From: Pocillopora verrucosa | Taxonomy: Eukaryota; Cnidaria; Anthozoa; Scleractinia; Pocilloporidae | Direction: 5' to 3' | Assembly (NCBI RefSeq): GCF_036669915.1 | Contig: NC_089320.1 | Span: forward strand, 9,517,233-9,581,232 | DNA length: 64,000 nt | In this document: piece by piece, positions 16,344 to 63,536 of the stretch | Position numbering within the stretch: the first letter of the stretch is position 1 | Layout: each line of letters opens with the position of its first letter | Program-made: the position numbers and the translations under genes | Notes under the pieces: generated by a model | The model's database searches: none | The model's input: the letters and a program-made list of their open reading frames with translations, nothing else | Told to the model about the DNA's origin: nothing

Positions 16344-16727
16344 CCGCACACTTCAAAGCTGCCACTCTTGCCATCCAAACATAGCTGAAAGTTATCCAGA
16401 GTTAAACATACAAAAGTTTTCTTTAGGAAATCGTCTCCAAACTGACTCGCACCTCAATTATCTTTAGAAATCACGTGGAAGAGCGAGTCTCCCCTACGTC
16501 AAGTATACTTTCAGTGGAGATAACCGAAAGAGAGTTAATTCTACATTGTTTTCAGTTTGAACCACAAAGCTGCCAAAAAGTCACAACCGAGCCATGTCAA
16601 CCGCTGGTTAGTTCACGGCGGTGTTAATGAACGGTCAGCGGTACTTGCTTGCCCTAAGCAATAGTTAACGAGCGTAACTCTAAGAGGAGCTTATTCGAGT
16701 AATAATACTTTGATCAACACTGAAACT

Positions 16728-37649: not shown

Positions 37650-40360
37650 ATGGCTAAAACTCTCAATTCTGATGGCGCTTTACTGAATAAAATGGAGGTG
37701 AGTTTACGGACTGTTTTCCAACTTAATTATATATTCAAACTTCCTTTCAGCTCGGCGAGGTGAAGCTCTCCTCAGCCCCAAAAAATTAAGTCGTTAAAAA
37801 AGACATCATCCTCGATTCGAACGTTTCACACAAAAATTCAGAATATATATTTCGTCAAAGGTATTCTTGGTGCAATATGGTGAAAAGACAGAAATAGCTA
37901 TTTTTGTCACTATCGCGAGGTGGTTAGAACTTCCTGTTTCCTTTGAAATCCCCCTCGCGCAGCAGATGGTTCGATTTTGTTTTCTCTGTTGGTAATGCGA
38001 TGTCTGAATTTTATTTTCCTTTTTCTTTTAGTGGTTCAACTATCTAACCACCTGTAAAATGGATCGGTTTGCACAGGATCTTCTTCATGCAAACCAACCA
38101 CTCGTGCCCGAAGCAACTCCGGTACCTGGATTTGAGCGCTTGATATGTGCTCCTCACATCAGTCGAAATCAGAAAATTCACACCATGAGGCAACTAGGTT
38201 TGAAGTCGCTATATTTATGTCCTGAATCAACCTAAAACGTTCGTTTTCAGAATGCCTACTGCGTTCTAATTTAAAAATCGAAAGAGGAAAAAGTCTATAA
38301 CTTGAAAATATTCGAGTTTGTTTGTGTTTTAATTTGCAGTTGAGTTTCCTCAAGAAAAGTCCTTCTTGGATGATCTGTATGCCCTTCAAGGCGACGAAGT
38401 GGATGCTCTTTTCAATGGGATTTCGGCCAGTGGCTTTTCAGACCACTCTGTTTTCAATCCCGAACCAGAGAGATATAAAGGTATTATGACCTAATTTTTA
38501 CTCAGTTTGCAATTGTTGTGTTTTCCGTTTTGAAAACGTCATTCCTTGTTTCCAAGGCGACCTTATTCTAATTGGTTTCGAGTCTCCCTTCATTGACACC
38601 TGGTCCAATTCGTTAAGACTTCCTGTTTTCGTTTTTCAAAATCTTCAGCCTTATTATTAAAATTTTGACTTTGTTTTTTGAATTTTATGTTTTTTACTTT
38701 TTAGTATGACCGATTATTAAATTCTCATTCTTAAAAACTGATAGCATGATTCAGACATAAAAGGAATAAAGGAAAGACAGATGCATATTGGTTTTCTATC
38801 ATTATCATGAAGTGTTGCATCATGTCTAAAATTAAAAGAGGAGGTGATTATTTTTTAAGCGGTTGCTGCTTAATCTTTTTCTCCCCACATCTTATTTACA
38901 CCTCCCACAATTTATTAATTTCAGCCATGAACTTGTGATATTTAACCATTCAAAACTAAATTTCCTCATGTTTTGATTCTTATATTCTCATCACTCAGTT
39001 GATTAAAAATCAGTACACATTGAATGGAGAAGGTACATGGATCAGTTCTGGTTCAAAGGAATATCAAGTTCGCACAAGTCTAATCATATTACATGTTTAT
39101 TTAACATTCCTTTCATTTTTCAGATATTGATCACCTACCAGACCCAGCAGTCTTTGATGGGCTGCTAGATGAAGTACCCACTGTGCCATATACACCCAGT
39201 TTTGTCCCATTCGTCTCGAAAGAGGAGGCTAAGTTCCAAGTTTGTGGTGATTCAGTGTACAATTCACCTGCTAGCAGCAGCCCTCCCTACAGCCCACCTA
39301 CCAGTGAATCTGGTTCAAACACCAGTGCTGATGAAGGGATTCAAAGTGACCTTGAAAACATTGATGGTTAGTGAAAAGAAACCTCACCAAAACATACAGA
39401 CACTATTGGACATATAAGAACAGCCCAGTGACTTGACTGCTTTATTCAAACCTGTTTTCTTAAAGGGTATTACTCATAGGTGTGAATTCTAGAATATTTT
39501 GTGTTATGATAACCATTTGAATTGTTTCTTCTGCATGTAAACTTTGTTTTAGATTTTTTTCTGGATAGAGTGAGTCAATCTGCAGAGTCACCCTTATCAG
39601 TAAATGGTGAAGCTGTCACATGCAATATTAAACAAGGTATCATCATTTTATTCTCATTTTGAGTATCTTTAGTATTGTGAATTGATATCTTGATTTTTAC
39701 TCTGTTAACTCTAATTTTTAACAGAATCAACTGTGTCAGCTGTTGTGCCGAAGCCAGTGAGGAGACGAAAGCGTGGGCCAAGACCACTGGTCAAATATCG
39801 AGGTATGTGCAATAAGTATTGCAAGTTTGACACCTTTTTAGTTCTTTTTCATCTCTATTTCCTTCTTGTGAAATCACACAATTTGTCCAATTTTAAGGTA
39901 GGAACTTGTGTTTTTCCATCTTTTAGGTGATGGACCAATTCAACTGTGGCAGTTCCTACTGGAGTTAGTCACTGATCCTAAATGTTCAAAACTGATCAAG
40001 TGGACTCAGGATGAGGACTACGAGTTCAAGATCCTTCAGCCCTCAACAGTGGCTAGGATGTGGGGGAAAAAGAAAAATAAACCAACCATGAACTATGAGA
40101 AGCTGAGCCGTGGTATCCGTTACTACTATGGCAATTCAGTGATTGAGAAGGTTCATGGAAAAAGATATGTTTACAGGTTCTTGTGTGATATCCCCAAAAT
40201 TCTTGGCTATGATCCAATGGCCATTAAATGCGAAGACATTGTGGATGATGCTGTGTGTGGAGAAGCTGTACCTGAAGTCAATGATACACCACATGTTGCT
40301 CCTTCAGTTGAAGATAGCTTTCTTGCTGGATATCTTGACTTTAGTGTACTTTATAGTTAA
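37650..40360 (+). CDS. ETS-domain transcription factor
   Basis: Seven exons: 37650-37697, 38032-38197, 38340-38480, 39124-39366, 39553-39636, 39725-39802 and 39927-40360; all GT-AG with matching phases; 397 aa. The ETS winged-helix DNA-binding domain (about 257-342) sits near the C-terminus: [12 protein letters not shown], then [19 protein letters not shown] and [10 protein letters not shown], which contains the two arginines that contact GGAA, and KRYVYRF. Just before it is a basic segment RRRKRGPRP, a likely nuclear signal. The N-terminal part is acidic ([16 protein letters not shown]) and Ser/Pro-rich ([19 protein letters not shown]), as expected for an activation region with proline-directed phosphosites. 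No Pointed domain is evident. The domain is closest to the ETS/ERG/GABP group; subfamily is not assigned. The acceptor at 37640 implies a 5' UTR intron. Confidence 0.92.
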
Positions 40361-43198
40361 ATTCTTACAGTTTATGTTGAGACCCAAAACGTTATGTAAC
40401 GTTAAGTTGTGTTACTGTTATTGCAGTTATTGTTATTGCGGTGACACTTTTTGTAGCTTGTATCAAGCAGATTATGTGGTAGTCAGCCCAATGATTTATA
40501 AATCGTATCGATTTTATCCATGCAAATGTTGTGAAGTAAATTGTACAATCACTCTGCCACATCAAATTTGGTAAAGGCCCAGAGGGATTGGATGGTTTTC
40601 TTTGCAAGATTTGCAATAAACTGCATACTTTGTATGTGCTCTGTGAAAATAAAAAGATTGTATTTGTAAGTGTGAGATATATTTAGACGAATGAAAGGAA
40701 ATCTGTTTCCTTTTATTCTTTGCCATTTTAAAGGTCTTGCGATGTCTTGTGGATGCTGGCATGAAATGCTATGATTATAGTTACATCAATATTGTAAAAA
40801 ATACATAATTTCAATATTTACATTAGTACATGAGCTGCGTAATCCAAGGCTCATTCAGGTGTTAAGAGGAATGATGAATCTGTCTGTTTTCTAGGAAGTT
40901 GAAAAATATTTGCCATATCTTTGAAAGTTATTTCTATACACAATTTAAAGTAATAAATAATTATTGTTACACTGAACCAGTGAGCACTGTACTTTTTGCC
41001 TTTATATTGCTACCAGGTAGCTTTATTTGTTACAAATTAGTGTCTGTAATATGCTATTGAGTGGGTGGAAATAAAATGCTTCTTAAATGTACTTGAATGT
41101 GACAGTTATCTGAATATGTAATTATTGTACAGCATAGCAATGGTTTTGTGATCAGGCTGTAGTAATACATTGTCACAGTAGGTATGTGATGGTGGTTGAA
41201 ACTTGAGAATATCATCTCACAGTTGAACTCTTAGAGTCATGGTCAAGGTACTAGTTTTTAACATTTGGAGATATCTCATCTCAACAGATGCTTGACAAAA
41301 ACTTGGTTTCAGCTAGGTCTTTAAAATCTTTCTGAGAGAAATCAATCTGAATATTTTGTCTCAAGTACTATGTTGGATTGCTATTAAATTATAATTTGGT
41401 TTTCTGTCCAAAATTGATAAATAATTGTATTTGTTTGAAATATTTCTTTGTTTTTGATTATTTAAATTCATTTTAGCAACTTTCAGTTGGGATGACACTG
41501 AGGTGAAGCGGTCTCAATAAATTTAGAAGGCTAGAATTGAGTGGGACAAAAACATTTCAATTTCTCTTCTGACAACTTTCAGAATGGAAGTCACATGGCA
41601 CTTATTTTTTAGTAGAATGCAGATAGGAAAAATAGTAAGGTTAAAAAATTTCATACTTCTATTTCTTTGTTAGAATTACTAAATACTCCCAGTGACACTT
41701 TCTTGAAAGCTCAATTGAAAGCCAACTATAAAATACAAAAAAACTAGGAGGAAAACCAGACTATTAAAAAAAAATCCAAGGAGAAATCGAGAAATCCTTA
41801 AGGCCCTTTTCCAAAACAAATTCATGAGGAAGTGTAATTCTCCTCTCAAAGTAATGAATTACTCCTGAAGTTACCAGTACTATGTAACTAAATCCTTTAA
41901 AAAATTCTTCCAAATTTAGAACAGGAAATTATATATACAAACCACTTTTCCACTCAAGACATATAAAATGGGTTTAGCCAATGCTCCTCATCTTTCGCTG
42001 GCAAGGAGTTAGTTTTAGAGTTTTATCACTGTACTAAGAAGAAATAAGATAAATTTGTCTTCACAGTTATCTAGTATGTATAGGGTGCACAAAACTTGAA
42101 AATGAAAAGCCCAGCACAATGACTTTATGGCTATAAATTCTACATAAAGAGGGAAACTTGTCATACTGATAATTCTAATTTGAACAGAAAGCTCTAAAAA
42201 ATATATTATTATAATTAGTATCTTATATTTCAAATATACCCTTATTACACAGCAGTTTTTGTTAGAATGTTGAGTACAATTCAAGATTTATTTAGATTTT
42301 ATCAACTAATAAGCTGTGGGAGTAGCTTTGGAAAGTAATATAATCTCCTTAACCAAACAGATCCATATCTAAACTAATTAGTGCAATCAAAGCAGTCACA
42401 GTAATACATGCTTGTTGCTGGCCTGCCAAGCTTTAGGGTCTTCGGGGCACTAAACAAGAATAAAGACAGCTAAAGCAAAGACAAGAGTGAGGGGTACCAC
42501 CACAGACACTGATGGACCTCTTGAACCTGAACAATCACAGAACAGTTTGTCAAATAAAACTTGTCCTGTTACGCACATAAAAAACATAATTATAAACTTT
42601 CATTGAGTGTTGGTGGCAAGTGCAGAACAAAATGCAAAGAAGAAGGGCCTTACAAGAAAACAAAACTTAGGCATCCAATTTGAAGGCAAATATTTTTAAT
42701 TGACCTTTTATGGGGGAGAAAACACAATGCATTAATTTTGGCAAGGAGATAACAGGAGAATTCTATTTTGAAAATAATAAATTGAACACTTGACTTTGTT
42801 TGATGCAAACAAAATCCTTTGTGAATATTGATGAACACCTTTTCTTGCCAATAAGTCCTGAAAAACAGCCAATAGCAAAAGGAAAGCTTAAAGGTGGCTA
42901 GATGTATTCTCATTCAAGTCTCAGTGGCTTTTTCTAGTGTTCTAATCTGTTCTAACTTGTGGTTCTTAAATTCTTTATGGATGCCTTCAGCATGTAAACA
43001 GTGCCATGGAGCATTTGGATACTTTAGGTGATAAACATTCACTAATCAATTTCTTTCAAAACATGCAATCTGAGCCAAAAAAATGATAATTAGTTTTTTC
43101 ATAAAATATTTACTAGATACATGCTACTTTTAGGGAGAATAACCACAAGTAATATCAAAAATCCCATTATAGCAACATTTTAATCTGGTTGCTCTCCA
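40361..43198. other. Intergenic between ETS and CPTP (3' regions of both)
   Basis: Convergent 3' flanks of the plus-strand ETS gene and minus-strand CPTP gene; AT-rich with no recognisable coding or repeat sequence. Confidence 0.45.
40648..40653 (+). terminator. Candidate poly(A) signal for the ETS gene
   Basis: AATAAA about 290 nt after the ETS stop codon; plausible 3' end, no transcript evidence. Confidence 0.4.
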
Positions 43199-43834
43199 TT
43201 AAGGAAGGTCATGCAGATTATGCTTGGTGTAAAGTTCCTCTGTAAAATCGTAAACTTGTTTCATTGCATCTGAAACTTCTTTCAATAACTGCTTGGTTTT
43301 GCCCTTATCCATGTTTGGTTGTGCAATTTTCTTGATGAAATCTCCGACTTTCGGCAATGTGTACATAGCCCATAATGCCGCCTTTCGAATTATCCACGGA
43401 TGGAAGTTAGCCAAAGATTCATTATAAGCATCTTTAGCCATGTAATAAGAGGAATCGTCGTCTGTTGATTGGCTTAATTTACTCATGAAGAGCATAGTGA
43501 AAGCAAGAGCCCGGTGCAATCTTAGAAGAGTTCTTGATCCTGACAGAGGGTGCGTTGTTTTCCGTGTCAAATCATTTTCGATTTCAAAATCAAGCATTGC
43601 TTGAATGAACACATACTTCTCTCCGTGTTTTGACTTTCGATAATCTTGAAGAATGCCCATTTTTTCTCTCACATCCGATGTAATGAATCCAAACACAGTC
43701 CCAAGCATATCGAAAAATATACAAAGTTCTCCATATCCTCGTATGTATTCGTCCATGACAAGGCTTCCGTCTTCTTGAAGTGTTTTTTTGAAGGCATCAA
43801 GAACGATGGCGAGTTCAAACTTTCTCTCAGTCAT
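43199..43834 (-). CDS. CPTP: Ceramide-1-phosphate transfer protein (GLTP fold)
   Basis: A single-exon 211-aa protein (human CPTP 214 aa). It covers the whole glycolipid-transfer-protein fold. The residues that in human CPTP bind the phosphate and amide of ceramide-1-phosphate are conserved with the right spacing: D54 and K58 (SDVREK), R101 and R105 (RTLLRLHRAL) and H145 (NFHPW). The C-terminus LYTKHNLHDLP matches the family end. Known role: non-vesicular movement of ceramide-1-phosphate between trans-Golgi, plasma membrane and other membranes, affecting eicosanoid production and autophagy. It is transcribed divergently from INTS11, with start codons 280 bp apart, which suggests a shared promoter. 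No odd feature seen. Confidence 0.95.
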   Translation of the reverse strand: MTERKFELAIVLDAFKKTLQEDGSLVMDEYIRGYGELCIFFDMLGTVFGFITSDVREKMGILQDYRKSKHGEKYVFIQAMLDFEIENDLTRKTTHPLSGSRTLLRLHRALAFTMLFMSKLSQSTDDDSSYYMAKDAYNESLANFHPWIIRKAALWAMYTLPKVGDFIKKIAQPNMDKGKTKQLLKEVSDAMKQVYDFTEELYTKHNLHDLP

Positions 43835-44114
43835 AATAATTAAAGTTATAGACCTTTGAGTAGGGTAATCTCTTCTTTGTCGTTACTACGCAAATTATTT
43901 ATGAGCTATTTTCATACCGCCGGCTGAGGCCGTTTCGACGCGTATAAGCCATTTTAAATACCTGCGGTTTCATCTCTATAAAACAAGCTTACCCCTGTAC
44001 TGCGCATATATCAAGGGGGGAGAACCCTGACCACATTGCTGGACGACTGAGCTGACGGCTGAGCTCACACGATGAGATGTGACTCCATGGAGTTTTGAAC
44101 CCTAATTTAAAAGA
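43835..44114. promoter_or_regulatory. Putative bidirectional CPTP/INTS11 promoter
   Basis: The 280 bp between the two divergent start codons must hold both 5' UTRs and both core promoters. It has a locally GC-richer patch (GCCGGCTGAGGCCGTTTCGA near 43920). No TATA box is convincingly placed for either gene. Confidence 0.6.
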
Positions 44115-47100
44115 ATGCCAGAGATTAAAGTAGTTCCGTTAGGTATGTATAGTGAGGTTTTTGATATTTCTTTCGTGTGAAGATTTTTCGCTCAGTGGTA
44201 CCTCCTTTCAGAAGGCCCCACGCGATCAGGGCAAGTGTTCCTTTGCCTTGGAATAGGGGTTGAATTGGGTTAACACTTGTGACAAATTAACTGGCTATAA
44301 AAATATGTTTATATCATTCTGGCTTGGAATCTACAGAAGTTTTTATTTCAAGAAGTAAGATGATGTAAAGAAAAAAGTTCGACATAAACCTTTACTATCC
44401 TTTGTTTTGAAGGATTGGTAAGATTTCTCTCTAACCCTATACTTTTGTAAGACAAAGCTGTAATCCCAAAGGCAGTCAATTATTTCAGACTATTTTCGCC
44501 AATGTCTTTTTTTCCAAGAATTGTATGCATAATGGAGAATGGGGCTGTATGGCAATAGGCCTTTAATGCATGTTTAAATTTACTCCTAAGCCTCATGTTC
44601 AAGGCACTGACTGTTGGATTTTAATCAGAGAGTATTACTTAAACACTTAAATCAAAAGAATACCATGAAAACAACAAGAAAGCAACAAGTACTATGGAAT
44701 ATTTTAGTACAAACAAGGCTTGGGGTGAATTTCAGTAAATAACATCATCATGCATCAGAGCTATTTTGCCTTAAATTCTGCAAAGTTCAGTACATTTTTA
44801 TTTATCAATGTCTGTGCTATCTGCAGTCTTAAAATAGAGTATACTGGTTTCATTTAGAACACTGTTATGACATACACAATTCCTCTCTAATGAGAAGATT
44901 CTCTCTACCTTTACAAACTATCAGTGGACCTGATTTGAAGTTGTATTAGACTGAGTTTCAATGTAGGCATCTCATGGAAATTGTTGCATGGCCTTAGCAC
45001 CAGGTTAGACAAGACCCATTTTCTGGTACTGAGGCTGTCATCAACGTAATCAGTATACACTTATTGATCTTAACAACACTTTAGGGAGTCAATCACATTT
45101 CAGTAGTTAAAGTATCCCTTGAATGGTGTTAAAGCTGAGACTTCTCAGCACAGAAAAGTGTCATGTCCCCCTGATTAGATGACTGTGTTCCTTTGAGGTG
45201 CCTTGATAAAAGCTTGTGGCTGTCCAAAATTCTACTTACCTTTCTCTGTCTTCCTTGTGGGGATCTAAGGCAAAAAATAAACAATTGCCTCTACTTGATT
45301 AGTATGTTCAGGGATGTCATAAAGGGCTGTGCACCAGGCATATTTTATATAGTATCCTTCCCTTCTTTTTTAGAAGACTGTCTAGCTGTGTTTTAACTGT
45401 AACTAACTGTTTTTTCTATTGGTATTGCAATTTGTGGGAATCATCTATCCAGGAGCTGGGCAAGGTATGTAGCACTTTACCATAGGTTTTTTTTGAGTTA
45501 CTGTAGTTACTTAATAATGAAAAAACCCATGTGCTGAAATATATATTGCTATTATCCTAAAAAATGATCCCAAATATCTACTTGTGAATTTACTTTATGA
45601 CATTTTCTTTCTTTTGTTCAATGTTAAATATTTTTAGATATAAAAAATAAATCAATATTCACGAATTTAATGTAATGCCATGTGTTGTTAGTTGTTATTA
45701 GGCCACAAACTGCTATATGCTGCTTAGAATGATTAGGGAGATTAAAGTGTCTAGCTACTGGTTTGGATGTGTCCTTGTCATTTCTTTGTATATCACAAAG
45801 GTGTTCTCAGAATTGGTCACTTAGTTGTCTTCCTGTTACATCAATGTATTACTTCTTATAATAAGAGCAAGTTATGCAATCAATGACACTGATGGAGGTG
45901 CATGTGAAGTGATTAGTGATCTTAATAGGTCTCTTAGTTCTCAACATTTTCTCTACAATGTGAATGAAAGGATAAGTTTTGCATCATGAGTGAGCGCATC
46001 TGAAAATTCCAGGTTGGTCATTGGTTTGAAATGAACTTCTGACCAGAAAGTTGCCTATGTTTTTGTAAAGTTTGAATGAACTTAGTGGAGGTTGTGAAAA
46101 TATAGTACCAGTCTCTAAATCATTTTGAAGTAATTTAAAGTTTTTAAGAATAATAGATTTAACTGTGTGGTTGCGAGGGTGAGATATAATAGTGAATGGA
46201 GTGCAATCAGTATTTTCTTTCTGTGCCTGCCACTCAATTTGTTGGCAGGCACATTGGTAGCCTACTTGAACAACAGAAACAGGATAGCCACATTTATCAA
46301 AAAACTGGCTCATTGCCACTGATTTTTTTGGAAAAACCAGAGTTGTCACCACAAAAACAACAAAGCCTGTAGTGAGGAACTGTGAAAAAGGTATGGAAGT
46401 CTAGATGTGTGATGGATGTGAAGATGAATACAGTAAGTAACTATGTGAGTCTGTAGGTTTGTGGTAAACACTAGTGCATAGACCATCTATATTGTTTGAT
46501 AATTGAGCTATGTTATTGTTTATTTTGAAGATGTTGGACGTAGCTGTATCCTTGTTACTATTGGTGGGAAGAATATCATGCTTGACTGTGGAATGCACAT
46601 GGGTTATAATGATGAGGTGTGTGTGCGGTTTTCAGTTCAATGTAATGTTCAATGAGTAAAGGAAAGTTGATTCAATTGTTGTTTCCTTTCTTTGACCTGC
46701 CAAACCTTCTCAAGGTGTTCGTATTTGAATACTCTATGTCATTACTCAATTTGATATGATAGAATCTATTACTTTCAACAAATTGCAATTTTTCACAGAG
46801 GAGATTCCCAGATTTCTCATACATCACTCGAGCTGGGCGCTTAACACAACATTTGGATTGTGTGATTATCAGGTTAGTAGAGTGGGTATTCTTTACCTCT
46901 GTCAGTAATTTTGCTATAGCCCATGAGGCTTAAAGAAAACCAAAGTCTCTTGCAAAAATTACTGATGAATTAATGTGTTAAGGTTATTATAAAGGTTGAC
47001 ATTTCAGGGCATGGAAAGTTTTGCCCAAGTAAAATGTGAAAGACTTCACTTGGTCTTCTGCCTGTCAGGCAACTGGGGAGAAAACTTGCATTTGAAGATG

Positions 47101-50100
47101 AGGATAATGATCAAGGGTTTGTCTTGGATAAGTGGGTGAGAGCTTTTTGAACCTGTGGAAAGGGTGTAACAAAGTAGTACATTGGGGCTTTGTCTTCCTG
47201 AGTTGCAAGAGTTTAAAAACATCTCAGCGTGTGCGTTACAGGACCTTAAAAAAAAGAAGAACAGCATCCATGTGCTGATTATATTCATGAGGTGGTACAG
47301 AAGCTGGTGTTGTACTGTGCAGCATTTTGGCAATGACTTCATAATGACCAGTAGTTGTTTTTATCGTAACAGCCACTTTCACTTGGACCACTGTGGTGCT
47401 TTACCATATTTCTCAGAGATGGTTGGATATGATGGTCCCATTTACATGACTCACCCAACTAAAGCAATATGTCCTATTCTTCTGGTAAGCTGAAACAATG
47501 TTAAACACATAACAGAGCTATCGAGATCTGAATTTCAATGGGTTTCAAATCACCTTTCTTAAAGTAAGCTTTTATCTTTCATTGAACCCTTGTGATAATA
47601 GTAAAGTATTCAAATTCTAATTAACTGACATTCTATCTTTGTCCCACTTTTATAGATCAATATAAATCAGTGACTGAGTTCAAAAGCTGTAATGTTTCTG
47701 GTCTCCTTTTTGCTGTCCAGAATACTTTTTCAATTAGGAACTCTTACCAAATATAAAGGGTATAAAGAAGAGTGATTCTCACAGTTTGTTGGTCCTTTGA
47801 CAAGAAATATAGATCAGAGTTATCAAAGCAGCTATTTGATTCCATCTTTCTACAGTATGCTGTTTTTAGTTTACATGTTATGATCTAATTTACTTTCCCT
47901 TTGGTAACTTACGTGGCACTCTAAATAGTTCAAAATTCATTGAAGACACTTTCTCACTTAGAAATACCAGTAAAAATATTACTTTTATTTATTATCAGGA
48001 AGACTATAGAAAAATTACAGTTGAAAGGAAAGGAGAAACCAATTTTTTCACTTCACAGGCAAGTTCTAAGGGCAGCTTTTGAAATTGTATGGAATTATTT
48101 ATTGTTCATAGTATAATTACATAAATACTGAAAACAATTGCACAGATATGTGTATAAAGGATCTTCAGGTGCTGTACTTGTCTGGTGAGTGCTTAAATGG
48201 ATGACTTCAACCCATAAATTTATTTTTTCCTCTTGCTTGTTTGTTTTATGTGAATTATTTACTAGGTTATTTTTAAAGTGATTTTTGTCACTGACAGGCT
48301 CTAAGCTCCTTAGTAAATAATTTCCATAACTTCATTCTGTTAAAAATCCCTGTTCACTCTCCATTCAAAACTCATCAAGCATTATTAGTTATTTGCAGTC
48401 TCAATAAAGAAATTTAATGGGAATCATGTCTTGCATATATTTAGATTGTGTAAGAAAGGAAAGTATGCATCATTGCACAGTTGCTGGTATTTAAACTAGG
48501 TGGTTCAAGGGATGGATTTCTTTTTGATGTCTTCAGAAAGTTTTGGTTTGTTTGTGGAAGTCCATGGCTGTCTTCAGATATAATTTGGTTCCCTTCAGAA
48601 AGTCTTGAAGAATCATGCCTATGACAAGCATACTCTGTAAATGACAAGCTGCTATTATAAAATGGAGGTATAATTCTTTCACAAGTTAGTCACCAAATAT
48701 GTAACAATAAACATTTTCTTTTTCTTTAGATGATCAAGGATTGCATGAAAAAGGTCATAACTGTCAATCTACACCAGACAGTAAAGGTAAATTAATCATT
48801 TAGAGTTTTTTTTTTGTTCATAGCACTTTAGCCAGTTATACCCACACCATCCCAAACATTTTTTAGTTTTTCAACAATTCATATGTTGGTGATATCACTA
48901 ACTGCAAGATTTACACTTTTTTATATGAGTCAGACATGTATGTAACTGATAAGTTCAAGATAGATTAAAACAAGAACCTCTGGAGATTATTTTACTAAGT
49001 TTTGTTGCTTTCCTATTCAGTGATAGTTGTCTTTTTGTTGGAATGGCTTTAATCTCTTTTGATTTAGTACAAAATAGGCCAAGAAATTCCCAAGTTTAGG
49101 TAGAAGTAGCAAAAGATGTAATCAACTTGTGAAATGCTCATGATGTTCTGGATGAAAGGATGAAAATGTAAGTCAATAGTGCATAACTACATTTGCTGTG
49201 GGTTTTTTTCTGTTGAACAGGTTGATGATGAACTGGAAATCAAGGCATACTATGCAGGTCATGTTCTAGGAGCAGCCATGTTTCACATGAAAGTTGGGAC
49301 TGAATCACTGGTATATACTGTAAGTGCTATCAATATGTTTGTGATTGTTTTCTAGCATTTAATGGCCCAGGATATTGGTTGCTTTTCATGAGGTGTCTGC
49401 CTGCAGCTATGTCACACAATGTATGGCAATCATGTAGCATGTTAGAAACTTGCCAAAATAAAACAAAGAGTTTGAGTTTTCTTTTGAAAGATATCAGTTC
49501 TCTGTACTTATCATCATCATTAGGTCTATGTTCAGACAACACAGAAAAAAAAATTGGCACCATTTCTTGACATACTAATGGGCTACATGTAAGCCTTAAA
49601 TAAATATGTATGACATGAATCTCCAAAAACAAATAATATCACTCACTTACTCCATAGGTCAGGGGCATGGTCAAAGATTTAGTGTGTCAAGCAATATTGC
49701 AAAATTGCCTTTATTTTCTAGCTTGTCTGAGTCTGTGAGAAGTCTACATAGTTCTCCTTCATATAACTGATTGATTATCTTTCTCCTCCTAACAGGGTGA
49801 CTACAATATGACTCCTGACAGACATTTGGGGTGAGAAATTTTTTACATGTTCTAAGGATTAGGAACAAAGTTCAGATACTGCTTTTCTTGTTAGTCTGTT
49901 CATTTGAATGTTTTATTGGTTTTTTGTGTTTTTGTAATCCTTCATGATCACAATGTTACTAGTCTTATGAGGTAATGAAAACAAGAAAAATATTTGACCA
50001 TGCAGGAGAAAAATAATTAATTCCTAAGTTCCAGTACAGAGTGTAGATAGATCAATGCCATTCTGTGTACCTTAGTTAGGACCTTTACTCTAAATATGCA

Positions 50101-53100
50101 CCACCATTATAGGGAGTTAAAATCATCCAATCCATCAAAATATTGTTTACATTAGTGCAGCTTGGATTGACAAGTGTAGACCGGATGTACTCATAACTGA
50201 GTCAACATATGCTACAACAATACGAGACTCAAAAAGGTTAGAATTTGATTGAATACTTTCTGCATAATTGCTTTTGAATCATTTTGTTAAAGTTGAGGAA
50301 TAACATAATATAAATCTTTCATTATAAACAGATGCAGGGAGAGAGATTTTTTAAAAAAGGTTCATGAATCCATGGACAAGGGTGGAAAGGTTAGGGGCCT
50401 CTATTTTATTTTATAATTTTTTTTTTTTAACCTCTGTATTCAGGTGATAAGTGGGATATTTGAACATTTCTATACAACATTGGGTAATAATTTTTGATGT
50501 AATGATAATGCCAGTGGTGGTAATGATTACTATTATAATTACATTTTTTTTACATATGATACAACATAGAACTTTACATGTAGTAATAAGACCTTAAGAA
50601 TATTGTAAGGATAGAGTGGATACTAGAAAATAAACATATTTATGCCCATGAACATAAACTCTGTTGCTATAGTATAGATGTAGTTTGATGTTGTTAACAT
50701 ATACTTAACAGGTGCTGATCCCAGTGTTTGCTCTGGGGAGAGCTCAAGAACTTTGTATATTATTGGAAACATACTGGTAGGATAATGAATATTAACTATG
50801 TTTTATTTTATAGGGGCACCCAAGTTCATATTGTGACTTGCTTTGTCTGCTCTTGTGAATTTTCCTATTGTTCCTCTCTTTGTCAATGTAGCAAATTTGT
50901 CTGTGCCCTATGTTTTACAAAAAAAATGAATTGTCACTAGGTTTTGCTGTACTTTTCACCTAAACTTGTCAAAAAAGTTATTCATTAATTAAGATCATTA
51001 ATCCTCATTGCTTATTTTTTCCTCATGGTATGATGTCAGTCACACTATGAGGTTTAGGGGTTGCATGGACCAAAAATTCACACACTCACACTCTCTGTTC
51101 TCTGATCTGTTTGACAACTTTGTTAGGAAGCCTAATTGTTATAAAGAAACTCACTGGTGATGTACGTTCTCACAAAAAACAGTTTCCAAGTTGGACACTT
51201 AATTATTAGTTGAAAAATTGGCAGAAGATACCATTTAATAGAATTGTTATTAATATCATACCACAAGGTTGCTCCAAGGAGCCTTTGACTCGTTATTTCA
51301 TTGTAAAATTTCCTTTCAGGGCTGATCAGAAACAATTTTATGGTTCAGTTGTTGTTTGTTTAATGTAAAGCCACCAGATGAGGTATACATTTTCTGCTCT
51401 GAATCATGTAAAATGGTGAAATGCTTGCTCTTCTGTTTAGGGACAGAATGAATTTAAAGGCACCAATATACTTTTCAACAGGACTCACTGAAAAGGTACT
51501 GTCCATCAATGAAAAATGCCCATAATATATATTTAGAGCCTTTACTTTGTTTTGTGTGTTGTTAATTACAGAATTTACTTTTACTACAGTATCAGAGTAA
51601 TTGTGGAGTAACTACAAGAAACATTTCTTTTGGGCTCTATCTTGAAAAGATGATTCTAGGTGATTAGACACTTGATCATCTTTGATTAGTAATTTCTCTA
51701 GAGGTGTGCGACCAGTTAGCATCAAGCTCCATGTTGAGCAGTCTCTTCAAAGGATCAAAAAGACATTGGTCAATAAAGTTTATCAATTGTGACAGAGTCA
51801 TAGTATCTGTGTACTTGCATTGTAAAATGTTATGTAATTTGATAGCTCATTGTCAGCTGGTAATAATGTCATTGACCAATAAATTAACTTTCTTTAGGCA
51901 AACCATTACTACAAGTTATTTGTGACCTGGACAAACCAAAAAATAAAGAACACATTTGTCCAAAGGAACATGTTCGATTTCAAACATATCAAGGTAAGTG
52001 TAAATTTAATAATGAGCAAGGAGAAGTTACACTGTAGGTTTTATTCTTCTTAAAAACAGGTTTAAAAGGTAGATATAATTTTTTTTTTACAATTATAGAG
52101 ACTCTTGAGCTGTTGGCAAAGTTGAAGCACCTACTCCTGATGGATCTAGAATCTCCTTCTCTGCAGCCTGTTTTGGTGCTGCCAGTTTTAGTCTGACCAT
52201 TTTCTTTCCTTTCTTCCTTTCAGCCTTTTGACAGGTCATATATTGACAATCCAGGACCCATGGTAAATAACTTCAATTAAAATGTTATTTTCCTTTGCAT
52301 TGGAATCAAAGGAAAAGGATATTTACATGTAGGAACCATGATTTGTTTTCTTGGAAACTTAAAAGTAATTTCATGTTATAGAGATTAACGTACCTTTAAA
52401 TAATTTGAAAATTATCTTCAAATGTGCATAAAAAAAACTTGATTACAGGCGAGACACACTCTGACTCTTTCAAACAAATTTGTCCAATTGCCTTTGCCTC
52501 ACTACTCTTTTTTTTCTGTGCCGTGGTGATCTGCTTGAACACTTAGTGTAGGCACTAAAGAAAAAGGCACTCTTGAATCAGGCAATAAACTTTTAAAGAT
52601 AATCAGAACATCAGCTGTTTGATAACCCTTTCACTCCCAGCAGTGACCAAAACATACTTTATCCTTGGCTTACAATGTCATTAAAATATTATTACAATAT
52701 CAAGCAGACAAGTGATGAGAATTAAGACAAATACCAATTAGGGGATTTTCATTTGGTCAAATACTAAATTCTCAGAACTAGAACATAAGCAATTTATGGC
52801 TGGCAGTAAGAAGAATTACTTAAGAAATCTTGGGAGTGAAACGGTAAATGGCACATTGGAGTTTTGCATGAGCAGCTTGTCTAATGTGTTGTACCTTATT
52901 TTGAATGTAATAACTTTTTGTATTGCAGTTCAATTACATGATCAATTTATGCATGGTGATTTGCATTGTGTTTAACTTTCTATCTTTTCTCTCTTAAGGT
53001 TGTGTTTGCAACACCTGGTATGCTTCATGCTGGATTGTCATTACAGATCTTCAAGAAGTGGGCAGCAGATGAGAAGAACATGGTATTTGGTTGTTGTAAA

Positions 53101-56100
53101 TCATTTTTTATTTCTCTTTTCTGCAGAGTATTACTCTGATACATTAAGTTCAGTGCATGAAGTTGTTACTGAGTCATGTTATTCCTGTGTGATGTGATGT
53201 AGGTTGTAATTCCTGGTTACTGTGTTGCTGGAACTGTTGGTCACAAGGTGCTGTCAGGACAGAAGAAAATTGAATTAGACAAGAAAAGTGTTGTAAGTGA
53301 TCATACTCACATACACACGAAATTCATATTGAGTGACTCTAAAATGTTGATTAAATGACTCTGATAACAAAAAAACTGCATTTATTATGTACTTCTGGAC
53401 TACTTTATGTTATGATCATAGATTTTGTTTACTTTTTAGTTGGGGTGTGTTGGTTATATTGAGTGAAGGGCTAATACTTGAAGAATCAGCTTAAAAAAAA
53501 AACCCTTCATGGTTGCTATATGGCAAAACACAGTTGATGTTATCTTGTTTTACCCCCCACCAATGCAGAACCAAAGTTTCTTTAGAGATTTGCCCCCTTA
53601 ATTCATTTATTGATTACAGTTTGTTTGTCAAGCAGTTTTTAACTTCCAACAATTAAATTCAGGTGTGCCTCAAGGAGGTGACTAACCTTGAATATGAGTG
53701 CATCAAATAATATAGTTTTTCCCCTAAAGCTTTTTAATGGTACTTAATGTGAATATGTTATATTTTTGGTAGATTGATGTGAAGCTTTCAGTTCAGTACA
53801 TGTCCTTCAGTGCACATGCTGATGCCAAAGGAATCATGCAACTCATTCGCCAGGTTTGTCTTGTCAATTTAGTTAGACAAGTTCCCTTACCTGTTGGCTG
53901 CAGTCAGTCTGTACATGAAGTGATTTTATTTTTCCTTGATCTTTTTCATTGTTTGTCAGCCAAGTACGTCATACTTGTTTTATTTATCTTATGTAGATAT
54001 AATAGACAAAAGAAAGTGGCATCCCAATTAAACTTTTGTATAATTTTTTGCCTTTAGAGACACTGCTTGAAAAGGGAAAAACGTTTGTGCCAAGTTTTCT
54101 CACATTATAACTATTTTTTTGCGCAGGCTGAACCTAAGAATGTTGTTTTGGTTCATGGAGAAGCAGGCAAAATGGATTTTCTAAAGCAGCAAATCGAGAA
54201 AGAATTTGGTAAGTTAAAAAAAGCACTTCAGCAGAAATGGACTATTAAGTTTAAAGTGATGATGAAATGAGTATTGTGTTGATGAATCAAAGACTACAGT
54301 GTGAAACATCAGAGCTGATTTCAATTTGCACTGTGTGCATTTAGAATTCAGCTGTTTGGCTTTCAAAATGTAATACAATGTAAGTTTTTTTTTTCAAATT
54401 TAGCACCACATCTGCTTATCATTCCAAGGGCTTAAGCATAGTTAGATTGCATGCTCATTCCCTCACTCATGTGGGTTTTTGGCCATGCCATGTTGGCCTC
54501 AATCGAAATGTGCCAGTCATATTCTTAGGCCAGAGGGAGAGAAGCAAGAAGAACCTCTGATAGGAATCAAGCTTTCTCAATTATAAATGAGATTTTTTAC
54601 CTCAATTGATAGGAATTGGATGCTTCAAACCAGCAAATGGGGAAACAGTGTGTATGGAGACCATTCCCACTATTGCAGTTGATATGTCACTAGCTCTGCT
54701 CAAGAGAAAAGTTATGTCACTAGAGAAGAAAGGTAAGTGACTGATCGAAGTGATTGGTCACTTAAATAAAGGAGGGAGTGGGTAGGAATGACAGTAGGCA
54801 GTGGTCTGGGTTCAAGTGTAAGCACTGACTTTCTTTCTCATTTAATAAAGTTTGTCTGTGAAAGTGTCTAGTTCTTTCTTTGTGAGTCTGTGTGTGTGGG
54901 TGCGTGCGTGCGTGCGTGTTCATGTGCGCGTGAAAATTCAAAAGCAGTAGCAAGTTAACTCGCCATTTTATTCGTATTTTATTCGGGTAGTGTGATGCGC
55001 TGAAGACAGAATTGAGAAAATTAAAATCCTAAACAATTAATTGCATACAAAGACAATTCCACTTTTGGTTCCAAACGTTCAGTTTTATTGATAGTGGTAA
55101 GCTGGCGCTGCAGTGCTCTAGATCCTAATCACAACGAGAGAAAGTTGGCTTCTGGGTTAACCGTTTGACCCGGCCTTTCTGGAACGATCGTGATGTAAGT
55201 TGTCGTGGAAATAGCGGTAGATTTTCAGGGTGAATAATGCTGAGAATTGAGCGATTCATCAATCAGGATTTATTCCTGATGTAACGATAAATTTTTGACA
55301 TTAAGTGGAATTTATGATGATTAGCCTGGAGCCATTACCATTTTTCATGAGTAGAGAACATTCATGAATGGTGTTTAGCAGTTTCACTTGCCGAAAATAT
55401 ATTTGTGCTTTTATCTCTTCGGTTATGTCAATGAAATCTAGAGTAAGTATACTAGATATAGTCGCTTTCCATTTCATAAAGTCCTCTTCACATTATACAC
55501 CGCTTTTTTTTTTTCCAGATGCCAAACGAGCCAAACTCACTCCACACAATAATCATTTACCCGTCCAAGGAGTGTTAGTTATGAAAGACACGGTAGGTTG
55601 TTCTGTTGTTTTTCCTCATTGTGCTGTGCAGTAGTTTTTAGTAGAGGACGCCGTTTATGACGGTCAGCAATCGTTAAAGCAATGGTGTTACACTTCAGGT
55701 CGAGAACTCCGTAACCGTGCACAGCCTTTTACTTTTTCTTCTTCTTCAAACTTAGGAACAGAATAAATTAATGAGATGTTTTCCCTTGACCAGCAAGCTC
55801 GACATGATTTGTATGCCGTTCAACGTTGTGCTTGTTCAGATACAAGACATTTAGCAAAATGTGCAGTAAAGAAATCGGTCGAACTTCATAACCTATGCAA
55901 TTCATAACCTACATGCTGTATCAGTGGTTTTATTTTTAGTCTTGGTGATCAGTTTTAACTGCCTCTCTTTGCTGTCTTTGTAGTCTGTAAGATTAGTGGA
56001 ACCAGCTCAAGCCATGAAGGAACTGGGACTGACTGAACACAAGCTTCGTTTTACATCATCAGTCACTTTAGAGACTACAATACCATACCACATGTTTATA

Positions 56101-57361
56101 GAAAAGTTGCAGTCTCAGCTAAAGAGGTAGGTTGTGTCCATTAAAAACCATTAGAGGATATCTTAAACATTCTTTAGCCTACTTGAGTGGTACTTCTCTC
56201 GCATTATTTTAGTTACTCCGGACTCTTTCGGAAGTGTGTGTTTTATCAATGGAAGTCGTACGATTGCAATGAAGAAAAAACAGTTCGAAGGGTAACTTTG
56301 CGTGCTTCCCACGATAGCTCGTCGATTGCTTTCACAATGTCACGAAATAACTGTTTCCCGGATCATTCAACCAATCACAGTACAGAAAACGGTCTGTGAT
56401 TTAAACAATGTTACATTTTACCAATTAGTGCTTAGAAATCAGGCAAGTAAAAGTGACAAAGAATAGAGATAGCATTCACAACTCGTTTCCTGTCGCCGTA
56501 TCGGTCAGTTTTGTGTATAATAAGTGTACTCCGGTACCTTGAATCGTACTGTAATTGACTTAGTATTTTTTTTTTTTTAATTCGTGGATGTTTGGATAAT
56601 TGAAGACTTCTTCCAAATTACTCGGTCCAGCGAGTGGCGGAAGGTTGTTTATCAGTGGATGACTCTGTTCTTATCAAGGTTAGTGTTGGCTATTGGAAGT
56701 TGTTTTTGTATTTGTCTGTAGTTCTGTCTTTTTTTTTTCTTTTTTTTTTTTGCAACTGCTTTGTTCCGATCCTCAATTTGATTTGTCAGACATATTGTAC
56801 ACGGGATAGAGAACTGCTCAGAAGTGGAAATGACAATAGCAAGGACACTGACTATAGAAATGGCAATGGCGATGTAGAGGCGCACTGAAATGATCGGCTT
56901 GACCTCGTTGGTGACAACTAAAGGCTTTATTTTGTAGTGTCCCTTTAAGGAACGAAACTAAAAAACCTTTGCCGGATTCAAGCTATCACCAGCGCTATTA
57001 TTATGATACTGTCTATTTTTCCTTCCTTTTGTATTTTGTGCTCCATCAATCTCGCCAATGAAGTAATTTAGTTCCTTCACTTGATATAAGTCGTGTTACA
57101 TTACAGATATCAGGAAGTAGTGATGACGTAACTCATGAGGCTTCTAACTGTACGGCTTTGGTTTCATGGACATTACAGGTGACGATTACGTTTGTATCAA
57201 CTGTTTAATTTCGTGTCTTGAATGACTTGAATGTAATACAGATGTAACGACTTTATATTTTTTTTCATTTCCAGGAAGAGGAGTTAGGAAGTCACGTGCT
57301 GTCGTTGCTACGTGACAGAATAACCAGACCTTTGCTCCCATTTGGTGAGTCTGGTGAGTGA
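44115..57361 (+). CDS. INTS11: Integrator complex subunit 11, RNA endonuclease
   Basis: Twenty-five exons, phases all consistent, 620 aa (human 600): 44115-44142, 45453-45464, 46531-46616, 46799-46872, 47373-47484, 47999-48058, 48730-48786, 49221-49319, 49796-49830, 50156-50236, 50332-50389, 50712-50776, 51441-51495, 51898-51993, 52224-52262, 52999-53082, 53203-53292, 53773-53853, 54127-54208, 54613-54732, 55519-55592, 55984-56126, 56606-56678, 57107-57178, 57275-57361. Metallo-beta-lactamase motif HFHLDH at 68-73 binds the two zinc ions; [42 protein letters not shown] and VLVHGEA complete the MBL/beta-CASP catalytic core. It is the nuclease of Integrator, which cleaves snRNA 3' ends and attenuates nascent mRNAs, working with INTS9. 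Exon 2 is only 12 nt, and intron 6 starts with GC (GCAAGT). Intron 2 contains a decayed PLE and intron 15 a MITE. The C-terminal exons 23-25 are the least conserved part. Confidence 0.96.
45453..45464 (+). other. INTS11: 12-nt micro-exon of INTS11 (exon 2)
   Basis: GAGCTGGGCAAG between CTATCCAG and GTATGT. It supplies the second part of the codon begun in exon 1 and encodes G-A-G-Q, needed for the family sequence VPLGAGQDVGRSC. Without it the frame is kept but the conserved residues are lost. Confidence 0.85.
45690..46500 (-). mobile_element. Decayed Penelope-like element in INTS11 intron 2
   Basis: Antisense to INTS11. The segment 45715-46000 is a diverged copy of the endonuclease region at 16.0-16.3 kb. 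Upstream frames keep PLE residues, such as [28 protein letters not shown] and [14 protein letters not shown] (frame 45984-46352), and [20 protein letters not shown] (frame 46401-46598), but frames are broken between them. Only the C-terminal RT edge and endonuclease remain. The relic ends within about 30 bp of the exon 3 acceptor. Confidence 0.8.
48059..48060 (+). other. INTS11: GC splice donor (GC-AG intron) of INTS11 intron 6
   Basis: Exon 6 ends TTCACTTCACAG and the intron begins GCAAGT. Otherwise the site matches the donor consensus perfectly (CAG/GCAAGT), as is usual for GC-AG introns. The next exon starts in phase at 48730. Confidence 0.85.
52626..52844 (-). mobile_element. MITE-like element, copy 2, in INTS11 intron 15
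   Basis: Bounded by CCCTTTCACTCCCA and TGGGAGTGAAACGG. Its interior is the reverse complement of the copy at 32.5 kb with many substitutions (for example ACAATATCAAGC and GATGAGAAT are shared). No coding capacity. Confidence 0.6.
54884..54932 (+). repeat. GT/GCGT microsatellite in INTS11 intron 20
   Basis: A run of GTGTGTGTG followed by GCGTGCGTGCGTGCGTG and further GT/GC alternation. Alternating purine-pyrimidine sequence, prone to length variation. Confidence 0.7.
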
Positions 57362-58064: not shown

Positions 58065-60134
58065 CTATGATAGGTACATACTAAAAACGTACAAAATTCC
58101 AAATGAAGCATATAAGACGGCAATTTTTTGTGGTAGAGTGAAATGTTTCCCTTCAAAACACGCTACACTTAAATTAAAGGCGAAAGGTAGAGTAAGCAAA
58201 GTTAACCCGAAATACAGCGAGGTAGTTGCAGCTTGTAAACCTACAATTACATATGGGAACAACATAAACAAAGTGTGAAAATAACATGCGCGCTGTGGTC
58301 CAACAAGTACTGCCAGTGTCCTGTAGCCAGCTCTGATGTCTGTCTTAAGATCACGTGTGTTTTGACTAGGGGGAAAAAAACACGTCAAACGTCACATTGT
58401 ATTAATAGGAACAATTTATGACCCTTAAGTCGTCTATTCTCAATATCTGACCCAGAGGAACAGGGACTCTGGGAACATGAATCAATAGTACTGCGAAAGC
58501 TCAAACTATATGGCCGTACGCATGCGTGTAGAACCTGTGTCATCAGTGTCCACGGAAAGGTTTCGCAAATGGTCGATTTGTCCGTAAAAGTGCTGGTTGT
58601 TCTGCTGCCTTTCTCTTACTTTTCTCTTTTTTGAGACCTTTCAGTTGTGCGAAAAAAGACCCAGCATTTCGACGTTGGTAATCGGTGCTCTATATGCTGG
58701 TCCTATATATATATTCTATATTCTTATATAGATCTATATCTTATATATTGTGGGAAGAAAAAGACAAATTAACTACTAGTTCATCCTTACAGACCTGTTT
58801 CGTGGTTACCCACTCATCAGGGGATTTAATGAGAATAGATCTTTACCATCGCTACCATGGTAAAGATCTATTCTCATTAAGTCCCCTGATGAGTGGGCAA
58901 CCACGAAACAGGTCTGTAAGGATGAAATGGTAGTTTATTTGTCCTTTTCTTCCCACAATATATACATCGCTCTACTCCTATGCATTGAGCACTGTCTTAC
59001 GTAAAGTCAAAATTACTCTTTATATCTATATCTTATATATATCCTATATCTATAATCTATATTCTTAAAAATATTGTGTATTGGATTTTTCCTTTATCCA
59101 GATCAACCACGAACTTTGAGATTAACAGCCCTTGACTTAAGAAGCGGGAATTTAATTTCGATTCATTATTCTGCCTGATTATGGCTTGATTGAAGCCACT
59201 GTTACGATAAACGCAAACTTCCGCGGGTATAATGAGATGCGTAGTGCGTAGTGCGTAAAGCAGCCAAGCGTAACAGGTGTAAGGATTAGATTCATTACAC
59301 GGAGTTAGCTTTTTCTCATAATTGCGATGTCTGAGTAACTCAGTCACGAAAGAATATCACTAGCCTAAGAACCAATAGTAGAAACGAGAATATGTCCTTA
59401 GCCCTGTAACCTCGGTCACACTTGACTAGCTTTCGTCGACTTGACGATCTCGTGGGAGGCAACCCGAGTGGTAAGGGTTAAATTATTCAAGAGACAAGTA
59501 AACATGTCTCGCGCTTGAGGTGTCACGTATGAGTTAAAAAAAAGTAAGAGGCAACTTCCTACCTGTGAAATATAGCTTCTGTGAATAGCATAAAAGGCAA
59601 AGAGTAAGTTACCATCCAAGTATACGACAATTGCCGGTGAACGGTTCCAACCTGTTGAATGTAACTGAACACAAGAGACAGAGGACCGAATATCCCACAG
59701 GCTAACACGTCGCCGACTACAATGTTCTTCAATCCTCCACCATGTAACATTGAAGTGAGAAAACCAGTAGCGTACAGGCCAAATTCCAGCCTGAATTCTG
59801 CTTCAGAGACCACAGCTAGACAGCAAAACGCTGCTGAAGCAAGAACATAACTCCATACCGCCCATTTTGCGCTGATTTCGAGCGTGACTCGTCTTGTGGT
59901 AGACGAAATGAAAAACCTTCGGTCTTCGGCCTCGTAATACGAGTTTGCAAAGTTCCCTGCCGCGTGAGTGAGGAGGATAACAAGAGCTGTGAGGAAACAT
60001 TTCACAACATCAAACTTGCCGTCATGTTTCCAGGCGAGAACTGTCCCCAGAAGAAATGACAAAATCGACGCTGGGAAGGTCCATGGCTCCAATGATTTAA
60101 TAAATATGTTGCGTTTGTTTGAGTTAAAAGACAT
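58065..60134 (-). CDS. UBIAD1-like prenyltransferase paralogue B, first Asp motif altered
   Basis: Two exons, 60134-59563 and 58365-58065, GT-AG, 290 aa. The second UbiA motif is intact and is built across the splice (FHSQNTRDLKTD, then IRAG). The first motif is not: where UBIAD1 has N-T-Y-Y-D-x6-D this protein has NSYYEAEDRRFF, so the first Asp is Glu, the second is missing, and the following DDRTLVD is replaced. The rest keeps the fold: PWTFPASILSFLLG, LTHAAGNFANS, GGGLKNIVVGD, LFTEAIFH. Several membrane helices are evident. The altered motif suggests changed metal/substrate binding or a non-catalytic role; no stop or frameshift indicates decay. It is convergent with INTS11 (about 700 bp apart) and in tandem with copy C. 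Confidence 0.9.
58743..58963. repeat. Long palindrome with two hammerhead-like cores (third retroelement-type repeat)
   Basis: Arms of about 107 bp (58743-58849 and 58857-58963) are near-perfect inverted copies around a 7-nt centre, with only a handful of mismatches. Each arm holds CTGATGAGTGGG...CCACGAAACAGGTC, plus strand in the right arm and minus in the left. It lies in the intron of UBIAD1 copy B. The flanks are TATA/CTATAT low-complexity sequence. Confidence 0.75.
58886..58909 (+). ncRNA. Hammerhead-ribozyme-like core, perfect conserved core
   Basis: CTGATGA, then stem II GTGG-GCAA-CCAC (4 Watson-Crick pairs, tetraloop), then GAAAC, followed closely by AGGTC, where GTC could be the cleavage triplet with a 2-bp stem III. 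A clear stem I was not found. The mirror copy is at 58820-58797 on the minus strand with loop GTAA. Confidence 0.5.
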
Positions 60135-61945
60135 AGTCAGCTGTTATTTTTTTTTTACAGCTTAAATGTCACGTGATAAAACGTCAGAAAATTCGGTGAA
60201 ATTGGCAAAGGTCGAAAGGAACAATTTTTTTTCGGTGACTATAATGAAATTTGGACGCAGTTTAGAGTGAAGTTCTCTCTAGTCTATGGATTTGATGCGA
60301 AATGTGGGTGGAAAATGTAATCAATATGCAAGACAATGATAATCTAGCAAATTCCTATGCTAATGTCCAGTGGATAAAAATAACATCAATTTACATCGCT
60401 GTTTACAAGGTTAAGGGTATTTTTATATGGAAATTAATTAGTCTCATTCAAGACACGAGGATGATGTTCGAGGAAAAGAAGAAAATTGAATCAGTTTTGA
60501 TCCACCTTACCTTTGGTCCAGTTTATCACATATTTAACAAAGCTAAAAAAAAAATTTCTTTAGTGTGACTCGGTGGTTAAAAGAGCAGTTACACTGGCAT
60601 CAATTCCCAGTGGAAAATGCTGCATGAAACAAGTTAATAGTTCACAACGTTTGAAGAGAAAAGAAAAATGTAGAAGAATAGAGAAAGCTGTAGCAAACAA
60701 TGAATCATGCATCAGGAATGCCGCATGATTTGCTTATGACGTGTTCACAAGACTCACCATCTTTGTGTCCACAGCAACCGAAAAGGAACCGTCTTCTATT
60801 TTGGTCCACAAATATTTTCTTAAGAGGTCTTAAGAGATTGAACGGTCTCCGGTCTTTTTAATTTAACCTTTACAGGTTCTGATAGGCTCTGAATGGCGTC
60901 GCTAGGGTGTGTTTTTTAACAATGTACAAAGTACCCCAAGTACTTGGTGGAAGCAAATGAATCGTAGCTATTTTATTAGCTTTAGTAGCAAATTTCCCTT
61001 AATTTCAGTTATTTATTAATTCATTCCTCCGTGGATCTTTATTTCTGGCCATTTATACCATTTCATTGTGCCGCCATTCGGTATTTCTAAGATTTGAGAC
61101 TACAATCAGCGTTGACTTAGTTGACACATCATGTTTGCCGAGTCTTATTTACGTGCAGAAGGTCACTCCTGTTTCTACCACGGTCCTAATCACCCTCCTC
61201 TATTCAATGTTTCCAGTATGTAAATAAAAGTTCATGGAATCACGATACAACATTGTTTTCTTTTCCTTTTTTTTTTTGTTTTGGGGGGGGGAGGGGGGAG
61301 GGACGTATAGTTTGACTTAACGAGGGCTAAAGAGATCATTTGAAGTGAAAGGGGGTTTAAAAGGTCAATGTGTCAACAATTTGTCGGCGGTTGTAGGTAA
61401 CCGAGTTGTTGTCAGGGAGCAAACTGGTGTAGAACTTCTGGTTAAGAATATCACAGTTCTATTGCCGTCACTCCACTGACTCAGACGCCTGACATTGTTA
61501 TACTATTATATGTTGTTGTGAAAGGCAACCAACGATGCATTGTATGATAAATTGTATCATGACACCAAGATAAGAAACTCATTACAGATGTCTCAGCCTT
61601 TACATAATCAAAAGCCCGAGAAAAAAAATCCCAATAAAGCTAACTGAAAGGTGACGAACTGTATTGTGGCGGGCTCGATAAGATTTGCTCAGCAGGCTCG
61701 ATTGCCACGTTTCTTCCCCATCCTCGAGACGATCGTAGAGTGGATTCGAAAATACGGCTGAAACAACCTCGTGGTCACTGTACGTTCAAAGAGGGCACTT
61801 AGGCGCATGTCCGAAGCAATCAGCTGGGTAAAGGCAAGTTCAACAGCAATCTTAATTGCGCTTTGTGAAAGTGAGCTTCAGGGAATTAGTATGTTCAACC
61901 GCACAACAAGTTACATCTCAACATATTGTATCAATCAACAATTCA
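60135..61945. other. Intergenic between UBIAD1 copies B and C
   Basis: Promoter side of copy B and 3' side of copy C. AT-rich with a G-rich run near 61284-61302; no gene or clear repeat recognised. Confidence 0.4.
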
Positions 61946-62424
61946 TTATGAAATAATCAGCCCAGTCAAGTAAAGTAAGCCAAACAGGAGATTGAGCTGA
62001 GCGGTTTTTTGAGGAATCATGATCATATCTCCATGGAGACATAGAGACGAGAAATGAACAGCCAGTGGGGCCGTTACGAAAGGGAATAGTAGAGTCCAAG
62101 AAGAACTCAAGGCCAGGATACACAGTACAACATATGGACCAATCAGAAGTAAGCAGTACAGAACGCAAGCATACTGCTTGCCAAGTAGAATGGCCAATGT
62201 CACAGCTCCTGATGATTTATCACTCTCCAGATCACGTGTGTTGTTCCTGAAGAGAGGGAAAGGACAATTTTAAATACAATTGAGTTTCAGCCAAAGAACA
62301 ACTCATGTCGGAGATACAATTGGTATAAGGAATCATGTGAGGGGGGTAGGGAATTGCGTTCATGTACGATGTCGTGCATAATGATAGTTTTATCAGGTAT
62401 GACTTACAGATAAATAAAGAGGCA

Positions 62425-62463
<39 letters not shown>

Positions 62464-63446: not shown

Positions 63447-63536
63447 GATTTGATCCTTTGAGGATTTTAAAGATCGGAAAGAAACAATGTAACAAAGTAA
63501 CGATCTGTCAAAGGACTATTATCTGCTTACATCACT

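Follow-up and report, generated by a model that had tools for sequence, protein, structure and literature searches.

CPTP and INTS11 in an anthozoan genome: a head-to-head gene pair that probably predates the cnidarian–bilaterian split

Introduction

Human divergent gene pairs are reported to be conserved mostly among vertebrates (PMC2670823): of 1427 such pairs (row sum of Table 2 in that paper), only 12 have a fully conserved counterpart in fly and only 9 in worm. A divergent pair common to cnidarians and vertebrates would thus be unusual, though the class to which it belongs is already known. Pairs with a bidirectional promoter have divergent TSSs less than 1 kb apart; here it is the two ATGs that lie 280 bp from each other. 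Among such pairs, SURF1/SURF2 resembles the locus described here in its close divergent starts, its CpG-normal common interval and its YY1-like site (PMC2670823). The bidirectional-promoter pairs treated in the same paper are, however, mostly vertebrate-conserved, whereas CPTP–INTS11 spans cnidarian to vertebrate.

A second comparison is with the ancient microsyntenic pairs of animals (Irimia et al. 2012, as cited in PMC5429095 and PMC8851819), in which neighbours have likewise been kept across phyla and cis-regulation has been proposed. Many of the cases cited in those two papers join a developmental regulator to a bystander gene with intronic enhancers; CPTP–INTS11 differs from these in being head-to-head. 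Moreover, both of its genes, judged by their known functions, look like housekeeping genes.

In vertebrates, the order ACAP3-PUSL1-LPAR6-INTS11-CPTP is described in coelacanth, axolotl, chicken and, in part, lizard, beside the TAS1R cluster, and the block is dated by inference to the sarcopterygian ancestor (PMC10781636). Human GLTPD1 and CPSF3L are both listed within one 1.2-Mb interval of chromosome 1 (PMC5082542). The initial annotation had called the two human genes adjacent and divergent, and these sources bear it out as far as the common interval in human and the adjacency of INTS11 and CPTP in other vertebrates. The human genes are taken to be immediate neighbours, arranged head-to-head. 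Our literature searches found no account of the pair outside vertebrates; the main published list of ancient pairs (Irimia et al. 2012) lies outside the literature that was searched.

Results

Identity and arrangement of the two genes

The window, a 64-kb stretch of anthozoan DNA analysed as a whole, contains two intact and divergent genes with the following features.

43199..43834, minus strand: CPTP (GLTPD1) coding sequence, one exon, a single ORF of 211 aa plus stop
42287..42292, minus strand: AATAAA, a possible poly(A) signal for CPTP, some 0.9 kb beyond the CPTP stop
44115..57361, plus strand: INTS11 coding region, 25 exons, 616 aa plus stop, by splice-aware alignment
44115..44142, plus strand: INTS11 exon 1, with the start codon, 28 nt
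45453..45464, plus strand: INTS11 exon 2, predicted to be a microexon of 12 nt, which encodes the conserved GAGQ stretch and is flanked by ccag and gtatgt

The CPTP frame runs on the minus strand from an ATG at 43834-43832 to a stop at 43199-43201. That of INTS11 opens with an ATG at 44115 and closes at 57359-57361, with no internal stops. The interval between the two ATGs, 43835-44114, measures 280 bp, in exact agreement with the annotation, which had placed the start codons 280 bp apart on opposite strands.

A phmmer search of the PDB with the CPTP product returned 4kbr (143.5 bits) and 4k80 (139.9 bits), with GLTP at 38.6 bits or less, and the Pfam GLTP family also matched (132.3 bits). Five putative headgroup residues, D54, K58, R101, R105 and H145, align with D56, K60, R106, R110 and H150, the headgroup residues of human CPTP. 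On sequence grounds the gene is clearly the orthologue of CPTP, a member of the GLTP family whose best match is CPTP rather than GLTP; ceramide-1-phosphate transfer is its predicted function. Genome-wide, there were four GLTP-family matches: the window gene, two exons on contig C2 and one exon on C13. When one of the C2 exons and the C13 exon were searched against the PDB, both matched PLEKHA8 and GLTP, and neither matched a CPTP structure at E values up to 1, so that the window copy is the sole CPTP found in the genome. Scans for CPTP relatives among prokaryote genome contigs (31 pattern matches) and viral contigs (one pattern match) gave no confirmed case, and neither set offered a eukaryotic locus for comparison. 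On the minus strand of 41501-43300 there is only one AATAAA, accompanied by two ATTAAA hexamers, at 42695 and 43179.

The INTS11 model is identical to human INTS11 in 435 of 611 aligned columns. Against the PDB it scored up to 999.8 bits with 7cun (first 610 residues), compared with 369.1 bits for CPSF73, and its translation contains HFHLDH, which fits the metallo-beta-lactamase motif HxHxDH. In the splice-aware alignment the intron borders are GT-AG, with one GC-AG. The plus-strand gene is thus clearly, as far as sequence comparison goes, the orthologue of INTS11, the Integrator endonuclease, over its full length and not that of CPSF73. Skipping of the predicted microexon would keep the frame and lose the conserved GAGQ near the N-terminus.

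In contrast to the vertebrate block, the pair here has an ETS gene and genes of the UbiA family as its nearest neighbours. Inspection of the window ORFs that were read, rather than a gene-by-gene search, recognised no neighbour from the vertebrate block. The ETS-domain transcription factor gene (39105-40360) lies tail to tail with CPTP.

A linkage group on contig C9

The genome searched comprises 353.4 Mb in 52 contigs, and the window lies on C9 (23 Mb). Ssu72 was picked first as a marker, and the other four families were fixed before any of their results; the genes of all five families are presumably located at 1p36.3 in human. With the orthology of the families assumed, all listed matches for all five lie on C9 together with the pair.

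C9, 0.45 Mb: Noc2
C9, 4.37 Mb: ATAD3_N, weak match, 34.8 bits
C9, 8.63 Mb: L20/MRPL20, weak match, 39.8 bits, one of three exons above the cut-off
C9, 9.56 Mb: the CPTP–INTS11 pair
C9, 10.94 Mb: Ssu72
C9, 11.77 Mb: Rer1

C9 makes up 6.55% of the genome, and the chance of finding 5/5 families on it would be 1.2e-6 if genes were spread by length. The one control family, P34-Arc, whose gene we assume to be on human 2q, mapped to C10 and not to C9, a result that says little alone (n=1). The 5/5 outcome points to a linkage group common to human 1p36.3 and C9.

The five families are spread across about 11 Mb of C9, whereas CPTP and INTS11 are 280 bp apart. With the members of the linkage group dispersed and the pair intact, it appears that the tight pair has outlasted the scrambling of local gene order. 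In sea anemones, macrosynteny is reported to be high and microsynteny poor (PMC10719294); against this background, the survival of a 280-bp pair calls for either constraint or luck.

The annotation had proposed, on condition that the DNA was cnidarian, that the pair has stayed together since before the cnidarian–bilaterian split. The genome is indeed anthozoan, probably that of a stony coral, and its GFP-gene arrays fit such an origin; with 5/5 of the 1p36.3 families on the contig of the pair but far apart, descent of the pair from a common ancestor has good support. The adjacency of CPTP and INTS11 in distant phyla, within a common linkage group, fits an ancient metazoan microsyntenic pair. 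The GFP-family exon matches (n=74) fall in two clusters on contig C1, at 0.67-0.88 Mb and 28.36-28.79 Mb, and among solved proteins the one match tested is nearest to amFP486, a protein of anthozoan origin.

A CpG-normal island over both start codons

The CpG content at the pair differs from that on either side.

43835..44114, no strand: interval between the start codons, putative bidirectional promoter, 13 CpG, o/e 1.01, GC 0.43
43240..44230, no strand: CpG-normal island, presumably unmethylated, 39 CpG, o/e 0.957

The island takes in almost all of the CPTP ORF, crosses the interval and INTS11 exon 1, and extends ~80 bases into intron 1. Its first CpG, at 43249, lies within the CPTP ORF, 50 bp from the stop, and its last, at 44223, lies roughly 80 bp past the border between INTS11 exon 1 and intron 1. 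On either side CpG is strongly depleted, with an o/e of 0.106 both in the left flank (40700-43240) and in the INTS11 body (44400-54500).

Methylation in most invertebrates is largely limited to the bodies of broadly expressed genes (PMC13345969), and methylated CpGs decay (PMC8857923). Read as a sequence proxy for methylation and accessibility, a CpG-normal hole of this kind is as expected where two genes active in the germline flank a single unmethylated promoter. The left CpG-depleted domain, however, also covers the ETS gene, and may therefore mark that gene rather than transcription of CPTP.

When a narrow hole was defined as CpG-normal sequence no longer than 1.5 kb, bordered on each side by three depleted windows, thresholds that were set after the profile had been viewed, there was one in the 64-kb window, at the pair, and none in 20 other 10-kb stretches. 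Two of those stretches (L015 and L030) do show wider CpG-normal gaps, in which some 2 kb separate the depleted domains. The genome is a mosaic in this respect, with a CpG o/e below 0.25 in 61 of 400 windows of 500 bp across the 20 stretches. Within the 64 kb, CpG-poor domains (38700-43240, 44400-54500, 17500-24000 and 34000-36000) alternate sharply with CpG-normal sequence, a pattern from which gene-body methylation in the germline could be mapped.

Motifs in the 280-bp interval

Four motif patterns were recorded between the start codons and compared with 1000 dinucleotide shuffles.

43948..43955, minus strand: YY1-like AAAATGGC, suggestive only, pattern in 33/1000 shuffles
43977..43983, plus strand: TATAAAA on the INTS11 side, weak, pattern in 284/1000 shuffles
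44001..44006, no strand: TGCGCA, an NRF1-like half palindrome, suggestive only, 35/1000 shuffles
44042..44065, plus strand: tandem 12-mer pair GACGRCTGAGCT, 0/1000 shuffles, but a pattern chosen by eye after being seen

Patterns for ETS, CCAAT, Sp1, CACGTG, full CRE, AP1 and DRE were sought in the interval and none was found. Short upstream ORFs are present on both the CPTP and the INTS11 side. The promoter motif patterns are close to chance, and we give them little weight.

Discussion

The explanation that we favour, with a probability of about 0.72, is that the two genes are orthologous to human CPTP and INTS11, were already divergent neighbours before the cnidarian–bilaterian split, and have been held together ever since, for more than half a billion years, by one common promoter. 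A single compact region of about 1 kb, constitutively open and unmethylated, would drive outward transcription of both genes; the transcripts of both would start within the 280 bp, and the same factors would serve the two directions. Selection on this promoter, rather than chance, would have kept the pair, because both genes are broadly needed and a breakpoint within the 280 bp would leave one of them without its promoter. This explanation builds directly on the identities of the genes, their orientation and distance, the linkage group with its scrambled members, and the CpG-normal hole over both starts. We count against it the left CpG-depleted domain, which may belong to the ETS gene, the near-chance transcription factor motifs, the intronless state of CPTP as opposed to the introns of the human gene, and the fact that few human divergent pairs recur in fly (12) or worm (9) (PMC2670823). 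As to the shared promoter suggested in the annotation, then, the single CpG-normal hole over both starts speaks for it indirectly, whereas motif support within the 280 bp is weak.

The main rival is that the ancestral pair has survived passively: there would be no common promoter, only separate core promoters side by side, and a target of 280 bp would seldom be broken. We regard this as rather improbable, though less so than any other alternative. The shortness of the interval and the weak motif support for common factors both suit it, as does the report that cnidarians show two-gene microsyntenies no less often than other clades do (PMC10719294). It sits less easily with members of the same linkage group lying up to 11 Mb apart, with the generally poor microsynteny of cnidarians described in the same paper, and with one unbroken CpG-normal hole extending over both starts.

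It is quite unlikely that CPTP and INTS11 became neighbours twice, once in the line to vertebrates and once in that to anthozoans, even though divergent pairs had separate origins in insects and in vertebrates according to Yang and Yu (PMC2670823) and the vertebrate block is inferred only for the sarcopterygian ancestor (PMC10781636). Such a double meeting would have to account for a pair that lies in a linkage group matching human 1p36.3 in 5/5 families. Moreover, we estimate the odds of a head-to-head meeting of any one given pair at about 3 in 10000 even within a single chromosome of an assumed 1500-2000 genes. Least probable of all is that an intronless CPTP retrocopy landed before INTS11 in this lineage and borrows its promoter: human CPTP contains introns and the gene here has a single coding exon, but we mostly set such an origin aside given that no other CPTP was found in the genome, that the neighbour and its orientation are the same as in human, and that the 600 bp beyond the CPTP stop contain no oligo-T longer than 6 and thus no poly(A) relic.

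If CPTP and INTS11 are indeed old neighbours with one promoter, as we favour, they form a new member of the ancient divergent pairs, an assignment that is well supported and that extends a class already known. Cnidarian genomes keep their chromosomes while scrambling local order, which makes a 280-bp divergent pair present in both coral and vertebrates a clean case in which to ask whether a common promoter can by itself freeze gene order. The annotation noted that the two products, one for lipid transfer and the other for RNA cleavage, have no known common pathway, and we too know of none; because the processes are unrelated, promoter constraint could here be separated from functional co-regulation.

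One role of INTS11 in human cells is to terminate promoter-antisense transcription (PMC11230626). This allows a far more speculative idea, to which we attach very little credence, namely that the pair gives the cell a built-in gauge of Integrator. CPTP would be the short and, here, intronless antisense product of the INTS11 promoter, so that low Integrator activity would raise CPTP, and vice versa. If true, the gauge would couple ceramide-1-phosphate transport to the level of Integrator and would explain why two unrelated genes never parted. The pair also allows one to test directly whether INTS11 affects the gene that lies antisense to it at its own promoter.

Other features of the window

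Three UbiA-family prenyltransferase genes, at 32990-33907 (plus strand), 58065-60143 (minus strand) and 61946-63515 (minus strand), flank the pair within 31 kb. The first is a single ORF and the other two lie just past the 3' end of INTS11; one of the three pieces scanned scored below the Pfam cut-off. We take these genes to be UBIAD1-like. The window also contains a reverse-transcriptase element at 13535-16401, presumably Penelope-like, in which RVT_1 scored below the Pfam cut-off. In INTS11 intron 2, a frame at 45624-45806 within CpG-decayed sequence encodes a peptide that is very similar to this element.
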